Program-made: the position numbers and the translations under genes
In this document: positions 267 through 3,696 of the stretch, piece by piece
How positions within the stretch are numbered: position 1 is the first letter of the stretch
Layout of the letters: each line of letters starts with the position of its first letter
Notes under the pieces: generated by a model
What the model was told of the DNA's origin: nothing
Seen by the model: only the letters and a program-made list of their open reading frames with translations
Databases searched by the model: none
Assembly: GCF_005518135.1 (NCBI RefSeq)
Contig: NZ_SULI01000016.1
Location: 1 to 64,000 of the forward strand
From: Shimia litoralis
Lineage (GTDB): Bacteria; Pseudomonadota; Alphaproteobacteria; Rhodobacterales; Rhodobacteraceae
Length of the DNA: 64,000 nucleotides
Reading direction: 5' to 3'

Positions 267-899
267 TTATCGTGACTTGGAAACTGCTCGCTTGTTCATG
301 CGCGGCAGCCGCAACGCCAAAAGAAAGATAATGACTGCCAGATAGATCAGGGGTTCAAACTGAAACCCTTTTACAAGCATCACAAAATGCAGCCCACCTA
401 GCAGCGCCACAACATACGTCAGCTTGTGCAGACGCCGCCAGCGCGGACCCAGCCGCCGCACCGAATACCCATTGGATGTAAGAGCCAAGGGAATCATCAT
501 CAGAAACGCCCCCATCCCGATCGTGATATAGGGGCGCTTGAGAATATCGGCCCAGACCTGAGACAGTATCTGTACGTCTAAAACCAACCAGACCAAAAGA
601 TGTGCCAGCACATAGAAAAAGGTCAGCACCCCAATTGCCCGACGAAACTTGAGTAGATTCAGGCCGACGTATTTTCGCAGAGGCGTGATCGCCAGCCCCG
701 CCACCAATAACTGAAGCGCGGCCTCGCCCATCGCGTGCTCGAGCGCCTTAACAGGGTCCACACCCAGCCCACCAGTCAACCCGAGCCAGAACAACCATAT
801 GGGATAGAGCGCCCCCAAGGGGTAAATCGGCCAAGCAGGCAATCGTCGCATCAGCCGATTGGCGTGGTCGGTCAGATTTTGGGCCCTGATATCAAGCAC
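267..899 (-). CDS. msrQ: MsrQ, haem-binding membrane subunit of the periplasmic methionine sulfoxide reductase
   Basis: MsrQ passes electrons from the respiratory chain or a flavin reductase to periplasmic MsrP, which repairs oxidised methionine in envelope proteins. The protein is about 210 residues of mostly membrane helices in the ferric-reductase-like arrangement. Conserved segments include GLGVDPVKALEH, FRRAIGVLTFFYVLAH, KRPYITIGM and RRLHKLTYVVALLGGLHF, whose histidines are the likely haem ligands. I chose the GTG at 899 because AAGGCG lies 9 bases upstream and because it overlaps the stop of the preceding gene, as expected for coupling. An in-frame ATG at 944 would be buried in that gene, and an ATG at 851 would trim the N-terminus. 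It is the last gene of a three-gene leftward operon. Confidence 0.88.
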   Translation of the reverse strand: MLDIRAQNLTDHANRLMRRLPAWPIYPLGALYPIWLFWLGLTGGLGVDPVKALEHAMGEAALQLLVAGLAITPLRKYVGLNLLKFRRAIGVLTFFYVLAHLLVWLVLDVQILSQVWADILKRPYITIGMGAFLMMIPLALTSNGYSVRRLGPRWRRLHKLTYVVALLGGLHFVMLVKGFQFEPLIYLAVIIFLLALRLPRMNKRAVSKSR

Positions 900-1098
900 A
901 ACAATTGTCGCCTTGCTGAACAGGGGGACACGCCACCGTTCCATACGAACAAAAGACGCAACAGTCGCCTGACTTGGGTCTCAGAACAATATGACAGTTC
1001 GGACATTCCAAAAACCACTGACACGTTTCAGTCGGCATTTGAAATGTCTCGGCATGGCCGCACTCTGGACATGTCAGAACTGATTCCAAGACCACCAT
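892..1098 (-). CDS. GDCCVxC-domain small cysteine-rich protein
   Basis: This is a 68-residue protein with 11 cysteines: two CxxC pairs (C10/C13 and C32/C35) that look like a zinc ribbon, then the signature GDCCVFC at residues 44-50, a further Cys at 57 and a terminal CC. The signature defines a small family known as GDCCVxC domain (seleno)proteins, some of which carry selenocysteine; here every position is cysteine. Its biochemical role is not established. It sits exactly between msrP and msrQ: its ATG overlaps the msrP stop as TAATG, and its stop overlaps the likely msrQ start. That packing suggests co-expression and perhaps a redox, metal or assembly role connected with methionine sulfoxide repair. 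It has no visible export signal. Confidence 0.8.
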   Translation of the reverse strand: MVVLESVLTCPECGHAETFQMPTETCQWFLECPNCHIVLRPKSGDCCVFCSYGTVACPPVQQGDNCCA

Positions 1099-2003
1099 TA
1101 GAAGTGTTTGCTGAGATCCATGCCCGCATACAGCTTGCCGACATCTCCCTCGTACCCATTCATCATAAGAGTTGGTTTGCGTTTGGCAAACAGCCCCCCG
1201 CCGATCGTGCGCTCTGACGCTTGTGACCAGCGCGGATGGTCCACCTGCGGGTTCACATTACTGTAGAACCCATATTCACGCGCGCCCGCCTTGTTCCAGC
1301 TTGTCGGCGGCTGCGTATCTGTGACGGTGATGCGCACAATAGATTTGATCGACTTAAAGCCGTATTTCCACGGGACAACCAAACGGATAGGAGCGCCATT
1401 TTGATTTGGGATGGGCTTTCCATAAATCCCTGTCGCCATAATCGTCAGAGGGTGCATGGCTTCATCCAAGCGCAGCCCCTCAACATAGGGCCACTCTAGA
1501 ATTGGGTAATTCTGTCCACGCATTTCTTCCGGCCGGTGAAGCGTCTCAAAGGCCACGTATTTCGCATCACCCTTAAGGCCAGCCATTTGCAACAGGTCGG
1601 CCAATTCAAACCCATTCCACGGAACAACCATGGACCATGCTTCGACACAGCGGAACCGATAGATCCGTTCTTCGGTGGTCATCTTGGCCAAGATATCACC
1701 CAAGGCATAGGTTCCCGGGCGCTCGACCAGACCATCAATCTGAATGCTCCACGGATCAGTTGTCAAAGCGCGGGCATAGGTTGCAGGATCAGTCTTGTCG
1801 GTGCCGAACTCGTAGAAGTTATTGTAAGACGTGATCGTGTCCCACGTGTCTGGCTTCAAATCACCTGCTGCCAAGGCCGGAATCGCAGCACCACCCGCTA
1901 GGCCAATGCTGGCCAAACCAGCGATGATCTGCCTGCGATTAAGATAGTGTTCCTCGGGTGTGACATCCGCAGAGGTCAAAGTATTCTTCCAGCGCTTGGC
2001 CAT
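1098..2003 (-). CDS. msrP: MsrP, periplasmic molybdopterin methionine sulfoxide reductase catalytic subunit
   Basis: MsrP reduces protein-bound methionine sulfoxide in the periplasm using a mononuclear molybdenum cofactor, with electrons from MsrQ. The 301-residue product has a twin-arginine signal (LNRRQIIAG, residues 21-29, then a hydrophobic stretch ending ALAA near 46), as needed for folded export. Cys119 in RFRCVEAWSMVVPW is the expected molybdenum ligand, and later segments such as GAPIRLVVPWKYGFKSIKSI are typical of the YedY family. The start has AGGAG 7 bases upstream. It is the first gene of the operon, and its stop TAA shares one base with the next ATG. Confidence 0.93.
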   Translation of the reverse strand: MAKRWKNTLTSADVTPEEHYLNRRQIIAGLASIGLAGGAAIPALAAGDLKPDTWDTITSYNNFYEFGTDKTDPATYARALTTDPWSIQIDGLVERPGTYALGDILAKMTTEERIYRFRCVEAWSMVVPWNGFELADLLQMAGLKGDAKYVAFETLHRPEEMRGQNYPILEWPYVEGLRLDEAMHPLTIMATGIYGKPIPNQNGAPIRLVVPWKYGFKSIKSIVRITVTDTQPPTSWNKAGAREYGFYSNVNPQVDHPRWSQASERTIGGGLFAKRKPTLMMNGYEGDVGKLYAGMDLSKHF

Positions 2004-2072: not shown

Positions 2073-3578
2073 TCACGAAGGCGTGGTTGTATTGTAACTT
2101 GGGTGAATTTTGTTCATCGGCACCGACCGCCCATTGGGTTGCACGATCCGTACATGGCGACGTCTCATCAGGCGCGGTTCGCTTACACCCACCGAATGGG
2201 CAATCGTTTCGACCTCTTTGATGATCGACTTGGCGTAATTTGCGACACGCTTGTATTTGCGATCCACCACGAGGCCTTTTTGGAACCGTGGATCATGCGT
2301 CGTGATGCCCGTGGGACAGGTGTTTTTGTTACATTTAAGCGCCTGAATGCATCCCAAGCTAAACATAAACCCGCGTGCCGAGGTGATAAAGTCCGCGCCT
2401 GCCGCCAAAGCCCACGCAATATCACCTGGATTCACCAGCTTTCCGCTGGCAATTACACGAATGCGATCCTTGAACCCGAACTCGTCTCGCAGATCCACAA
2501 CCAAGGGAAGCGCCTCTCGCACTGGCATCCCGACCAGATCAATCAGGGGCATCGGCGCCGCACCCGTTCCGCCCTCGCCACCATCAATCGTGATAAAGTC
2601 GGGTGCAGCATCGGACCCACGGCGTTTGATTGTTTCGAAAAAGTTGCGGAATGTATCTTCTGCGCCAACAACTGTTTTGATGCCGACGGGTTTTCCGGTC
2701 ACCTCGCGGATGCGCACAATCATATCGAGCAGGTGGTCGAAATTGTCGATCTCGCGATGACGGTTCGGTGAAATCCCGTCTTGCCCGACCTTCAGGCCAC
2801 GAATGGCGGCGATTTCTTCTGTGACCTTTTCACCAGGCAAAATCCCCCCTTTGCCAGGCTTGGCGCCTTGGGCCATCTTGATTTCAAACATGCGAATGGT
2901 TTCGTGCGCCGCGATGGCTCTGAGTTTGTCATCACACAATCCCCCATGCTCGTCACGCACCCCAAACTTGGCCGTTCCAATCTGATAGACAAGATCGCAC
3001 CCCCCCTCGAGATGAAAGGGCGATACGCCCCCTTCCCCGGTGTTCAGCCAAACACCAGCTTCCTTGGCCCCTTTACTCAGGGCCTGAACTGCGGGTTTCG
3101 AAATCGCGCCATAGCTCATCCCAGAGATATTAAAGATGGATGGCGCAATGAACGGTTGGCGCGCCGATGGCCCAATCTGCAGCGGTTCAGAGCTGGCAAA
3201 CTGATCATCCAGCGGCGGAAACGGGTCATTTACAAAAATGGGAGTGCCCACCACGCTCAGATTGCGCGTTGATCCAAACGCAACCGTGTTTCCCTTGCCG
3301 TCGCCGGAACGCGTGACCCAGTCTCGCTGTGCTCGATTAAAAGGAAGCTCTTCGCGATCCATCGCAAAGAAGTACTGACGAAAAAACTCTCCCAGTTCAC
3401 TAAAGATATGTCGAAACCGCCCGATCAAAGGATAGTTCCGGCGGATGGCGTCTTCGGTCTGAAAACGGTCGATGATGAACAGCACAATTGAAATCGCAAA
3501 CACGACACCAAGGATAACAAGAAACACCAATCCAAGAATTTGTGCGATGTCGAAATCTGCATCCATAGACATATTCAT
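2073..3578 (-). CDS. Membrane-anchored FMN-binding glutamate-synthase-like protein
   Basis: About 501 residues. After a single transmembrane helix (roughly residues 11-37, a run of I, L and V) comes the synthase domain of the large glutamate synthase subunit. It shows GMSYGAISKPAVQALSKGA, the NTGEGG loop, the TIDGGEGGTGAAP flavin-site segment and a C-terminal KCNKNTCPTG cluster resembling the iron-sulfur motif. The glutaminase domain of true GltB is absent, so it is a stand-alone FMN-binding family member of unknown substrate, held at the inner membrane. I start at the ATG at 3578, which has AGGA 8 bases upstream; the open frame continues to 3647. It diverges from the DUF302 gene. Confidence 0.82.
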   Translation of the reverse strand: MNMSMDADFDIAQILGLVFLVILGVVFAISIVLFIIDRFQTEDAIRRNYPLIGRFRHIFSELGEFFRQYFFAMDREELPFNRAQRDWVTRSGDGKGNTVAFGSTRNLSVVGTPIFVNDPFPPLDDQFASSEPLQIGPSARQPFIAPSIFNISGMSYGAISKPAVQALSKGAKEAGVWLNTGEGGVSPFHLEGGCDLVYQIGTAKFGVRDEHGGLCDDKLRAIAAHETIRMFEIKMAQGAKPGKGGILPGEKVTEEIAAIRGLKVGQDGISPNRHREIDNFDHLLDMIVRIREVTGKPVGIKTVVGAEDTFRNFFETIKRRGSDAAPDFITIDGGEGGTGAAPMPLIDLVGMPVREALPLVVDLRDEFGFKDRIRVIASGKLVNPGDIAWALAAGADFITSARGFMFSLGCIQALKCNKNTCPTGITTHDPRFQKGLVVDRKYKRVANYAKSIIKEVETIAHSVGVSEPRLMRRRHVRIVQPNGRSVPMNKIHPSYNTTTPS

Positions 3579-3696
3579 ATGTATCATCCTAATCTGTTGA
3601 CCTGCATCAATGCCGTTCCATGGGCTGGCCTTACAGTGCGATGTCACCGACTGTGTCGCAAGTCACGAATACCCAAATTTTTCGGGAGGAAAAGTT

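Follow-up and report, generated by a model that had tools for sequence, protein, structure and literature searches.

MsrPQ has been studied mainly as a defence against reactive chlorine. In E. coli, copper induces it via CusSR, and it maintains the copper efflux pump CusF (PMC9302797); the methionine sulfoxides of the C. sphaeroides copper chaperone PcuC can be reduced by MsrP (PMC12860648). The copper induction in E. coli and the reduction of PcuC provide a precedent for a link between MsrPQ and metals. Our literature search found no description of a third gene in msrPQ, and the family name GDCCVxC was not found there.

The locus described here, from Shimia litoralis, has a small cysteine-rich gene between msrP and msrQ. 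The features below lie in the window (the whole 64,000-nt stretch that was analysed).

892..1098, minus strand: GDCCVxC-domain protein gene, 68 aa with 11 Cys (NF041374, 100.9 bits, cut-off 40)
1098..2003, minus strand: msrP, periplasmic methionine sulfoxide reductase catalytic subunit (NF003767, 446.3 bits, cut-off 207), with a twin-arginine leader, NRRQIIAG, read from the sequence
267..899, minus strand: msrQ, heme-binding membrane subunit (NF003831, 161.9 bits, cut-off 130), with GTG 899 as the proposed start
1096..1100, minus strand: TAATG, msrP stop overlapping the GDCCVxC start, read from the sequence; the spacing is equally close in most linked relatives
892..899, minus strand: GTGCTTGA, msrQ start overlapping the GDCCVxC stop, read from the sequence; a -8 GTG also occurs in L261 and L267, and a -4 ATG in many others

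MsrP and MsrQ form an adjoining pair of equivalogs, both over their NCBIfam cut-offs, and MsrP has an export leader. The preliminary description had placed a 68-residue, 11-cysteine protein of the GDCCVxC family between them with overlaps on both sides, and the profile match and both overlaps bear this out; the locus was right, and the span it gave, 892-1100, is corrected to 892-1098. The overlap with msrP is 1 nt (TAATG), and that with msrQ is 8 nt if GTG 899 is used. The longest open reading frame would start msrQ at ATG 944, with a 53-nt overlap with the GDCCVxC gene. The 8-nt overlap GTGCTTGA and the AGGGGG upstream of the start point to GTG 899 as the probable msrQ start. Upstream of msrP lies an FMN-binding glutamate synthase gene (window 2073-3647). 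Positions 1-266 of the window are the contig end; relatives with longer contigs (L273, L289, L298, L300) have a 16S rRNA gene beside msrPQ, which is probably the reason that the window starts there.

The small protein (MVVLESVLTCPECGHAETFQMPTETCQWFLECPNCHIVLRPKSGDCCVFCSYGTVACPPVQQGDNCCA) matches NF041374 with E 3.2e-29, its residues 6-62 aligning with positions 1-57 of the 58-position model, and Pfam has no family for it. Its cysteines are C10, C13, C26, C32, C35, C46, C47, C50, C57, C66 and C67, its motif is GDCCVFC, and all nine conserved cysteines of the family are present. These nine are conserved to at least 99% over 163 distinct members, and the CC tail is found in 86-87%. The protein begins straight at the CPEC region, with no evident export signal when read from the sequence. 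The AlphaFold model is a confident small beta fold (pLDDT 90.8). Structure searches with Foldseek and VIA-align gave no clear homologue, the weak matches being zinc-ribbon-like (Foldseek E 0.38 or worse; best VIA-align Z 3.5). In such a fold, C10, C13, C32 and C35 would hold a zinc ion.

The statement that the family includes selenoproteins also stood: the Cys26 position is an in-frame TGA in two members, L219 (genome G445) and L224 (G355), and both genomes have SelB over the cut-off. The replacement of Cys26 by selenocysteine suggests that this residue is a reactive thiol. The window copy has no in-frame stop, and a selenocysteine-type TGA at Cys26 was seen only in L219 and L224. SECIS hairpins downstream of these two codons were not stronger than in shuffled sequences (z -1.1 and -0.6). 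A further candidate, selenocysteine at the second cysteine of GDCC in L227 (GDC-TGA-VFC), is doubtful, as its genome (G270) has no SelB over the cut-off, and it is probably a broken gene.

To survey the family in msrPQ operons, as the preliminary description had proposed, we used 394 genomes sampled at genus level from the taxonomic family to which the window belongs, taking NF041374 matches over the cut-off and then locating MsrP. The GDCCVxC gene was found in 73 of the 394 genomes (82 loci). It was considered linked when it shared the strand of msrP and was separated from it by less than 700 nt, and this was so in 30 of the 73, or 30 of the 66 genomes that have both genes; in these 30, the small gene lies 15-480 nt behind the msrP match. 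A contig scan added a linked gammaproteobacterium, Thiohalobacter (L089); it also returned a Rhodobacteraceae MAG (L137), whose contig is already counted among the 30. Both genes were also sought in the remaining positive Alphaproteobacteria and in sampled genomes of other Pseudomonadota, where their coordinates showed no adjacency. By estimate, far less than one such case would be expected if the gene were placed at random among about 4,000, so the linkage is not chance, the 30 genomes being related rather than independent events. An order unique to the S. litoralis genome, a possibility that the preliminary description had raised, is ruled out by the 30 linked genera and Thiohalobacter.

Tight coupling is the rule among the linked relatives. 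In most loci the small gene starts -4 to +13 nt from the msrP stop, and the msrQ start overlaps or lies near the stop of the small gene, often as a 4-nt ATGA; in a few (L165, L260) the contig stops before msrQ or no msrQ was found. Where the genes are unlinked in this clade, msrP and msrQ are closely coupled to each other, and many such msrPQ operons are joined directly, with no GDCCVxC gene in them. Because the unlinked pair is also closely coupled, the gene appears to have been inserted at the junction with the coupling unbroken. The upstream FMN-binding glutamate synthase gene is common to linked and unlinked loci (22 cases), which indicates a single ancestral locus at which the small gene was gained or lost.

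The conserved position and two-sided coupling in 30 genera could mean that MsrPQ has in the small protein a dedicated partner in the cytosol, one that either passes electrons to MsrQ on its cytosolic face or shields the Mo-ligand cysteine of the MsrP precursor ahead of Tat export. The lack of adjacency in other lineages, as if the gene were bound to the MsrPQ of this clade, and the selenocysteine at Cys26, which suggests redox chemistry, fit this explanation. However, the many same-clade msrPQ operons without the gene are themselves tightly coupled and rule out GDCCVxC as a universal part of MsrPQ, the linked state is scattered over the MsrP tree (about 15 changes), mer modules and plasmids that carry no msrPQ have the same protein, and no MsrPQ system that we found described in the literature includes it. 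We consider a dedicated partner distinctly improbable. The proposal that the protein takes part in redox delivery to MsrPQ or in its assembly fares poorly on the same operons and tree, and the small protein has no evident signal peptide, in contrast to the twin-arginine MsrP. It is possible that the protein acts in the cytosol before MsrP export or at the cytosolic side of MsrQ.

At least four of the changes on the MsrP tree are forced by well-supported branches, and such change counts cannot distinguish gains from losses. In the small-protein tree, the msr-linked copies require 14 changes compared with a shuffled mean of 24.8, so they are clustered beyond chance, and they do not form one clade. 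Constraining them to one clade was not rejected (p-AU 0.142), on a poorly resolved tree of 68-aa proteins. A single origin with many losses and several insertions are both possible.

Outside msrPQ, the commonest home of the family is a mercury-type module of MerR and MerT, MerF and MerP. On plasmids and chromosomes, the GDCCVxC gene follows genes for MerR and MerT/MerF/MerP or MerTP, and Mer transporter genes adjoin 27 of the 37 same-family copies with known context outside msrPQ. Some loci adjoin a gene for the arsenite exporter ACR3 or for a metal P-type ATPase, and in about half of the loci of the family no metal or redox neighbour of these kinds was recognised. Plasmid loci including L139, L140, L141 and L146 are MerR-MerT(P)-GDCCVxC cassettes that have no annotated merA in the vicinity; one of them lies beside a Tn3-family transposase. 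No phage record contained a GDCCVxC protein. The msr-linked and mer-linked copies have equal cysteine counts and a CC tail in 90% of each, and differ at surface-type positions, e.g., 15, 28 and 30.

Redox genes are also found beside the family, namely those for glutaredoxin, 1-Cys peroxiredoxin, a DsbD-type membrane protein and rhodanese. In five loci (L067, L108, L111, L131 and L181), the neighbour is a glutathione-reductase-like flavoprotein disulfide reductase with the motif GGTCALRGCDPK; occurring in several distant lineages, this flavoprotein is a possible redox partner of GDCCVxC. Together with the selenocysteine variants, these neighbours would suit a protein of general redox or thiol-repair function in the cytosol, either a small reductase or a carrier of thiols, that has no part in metal handling and sits among oxidant-defence genes. 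Such a function is very doubtful, as metal transport is the dominant context of the family and merF is kept within some msr operons.

The latter operons belong to three genera with the order msrP-merF-GDCCVxC-msrQ (L159, L252, L256), in which merF occupies a gap of roughly 200 nt. Against the MerF cut-off of 50, the proteins in the gap of L159 and L252 score 93.7 and 76.1 bits; that of L256 scores 40 bits, below the cut-off, and also matches Pfam Transport_MerF with E 6.4e-5. In L252 and L256, merF starts at the msrP stop (TGATG). The position of merF in the gap between msrP and the small gene means that a merF-GDCCVxC unit exists within msrPQ. The merF-carrying msr operon is new and absent from the preliminary description, and it favours metal handling among the three roles suggested there. 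Metal handling is the part of the proposed MsrPQ role that held up, on the MerT/MerF/MerP, ACR3 and P-type ATPase contexts and on merF in three msr operons. In another linked locus (L171), a gene for a protein of 127 aa lies between msrP and the GDCCVxC gene; the protein probably carries a signal peptide and has no match in Pfam.

The merF still held in these three operons would also be expected if a merF-GDCCVxC cassette had landed in msrPQ by chance and found a convenient promoter, with merF usually lost and with no functional link to MsrPQ. The single origin of the msr-linked copies that the constrained tree did not reject agrees with such hitch-hiking, as does the loss of Cys50 and the CC tail in the linked GDCCVxC copy of L171. 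Against it, 31 linked copies keep the cysteine set and the coupling across divergent genera, and the Thiohalobacter case lies outside the family. Retention over so long a time suggests that selection has acted on the pairing or, at a minimum, on joint expression, and we regard hitch-hiking as unlikely.

The genome-wide search of the window's genome (G000) covered MerF and MerA: it found no MerF match, and none of the five flavoprotein matches was over the MerA cut-off. With no MerF or MerA over the cut-off, no mercury route is visible in this genome. The operon in the window contains no merR and no Mer transporter gene, its members beside the small gene being msrP and msrQ, and 26 of the 30 linked genomes have no MerA over the cut-off. 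This leaves a metal other than mercury, a benefit from binding by itself, or a broader thiol role for the protein.

In summary, we give about an even chance to the reading, drawn from sequence and gene context, that GDCCVxC is a cytosolic, zinc-ribbon-like thiol protein of mercury-type (soft-metal) modules that is co-expressed with MsrPQ as a metal and oxidant stress unit and is accessory, not required for MsrPQ catalysis. Coupling on both sides would ensure that the small protein is made whenever MsrPQ is made. Its CxxC/CxxC pair would hold zinc, and in the cytosol Cys26 and the GDCCVxC cysteines may bind either an oxidised thiol adduct or ions of a soft metal (Hg, perhaps also Cu). The protein would thus protect the cytosol, while MsrPQ would repair oxidised methionines outside. 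A bolder proposal makes the MsrPQ of this clade part of a soft-metal (mercury or copper) stress system. GDCCVxC, alone or together with MerF, would be a functional third component there, connecting metal or thiol chemistry in the cytosol with methionine repair in the periplasm, perhaps by an action on MsrQ or on MsrP before its export; we think this unlikely. The three-gene form, present in about 30 genera and with a mercury transporter in a few, would tie periplasmic protein repair to soft-metal handling, and it offers an accessible route to the function of the widespread, uncharacterised GDCCVxC family.

Compared with known systems, the three-gene form is a new operon variant of known parts. 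The E. coli hiuH-msrPQ operon is similar in having msrP and msrQ in one stress-linked operon; the descriptions of it that we found mention no GDCCVxC gene, and the operon described here has no hiuH. The small protein may resemble zinc ribbons such as LysW and the ZitP zinc finger in having two CxxC-type knuckles in a short beta fold (weak structural matches), but it has no significant sequence or structure match to them, and the GDCCVxC half and the CC tail are extra. With NCBIfam NF041374 it shares a full-length match, GDCCVFC and the nine invariant cysteines, whereas the usual neighbours of that family are Mer transporters and the window copy lies within msrPQ. The plasmid merR-merT/merF-merP-GDCCVxC cassettes (e.g., L142, L144 and L146) likewise have the small protein downstream of a membrane gene; unlike them, the operon in the window lacks merR and a mer transporter and adds msrP and msrQ. 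In the msrPQ loci L159, L252 and L256, merF itself precedes GDCCVxC.
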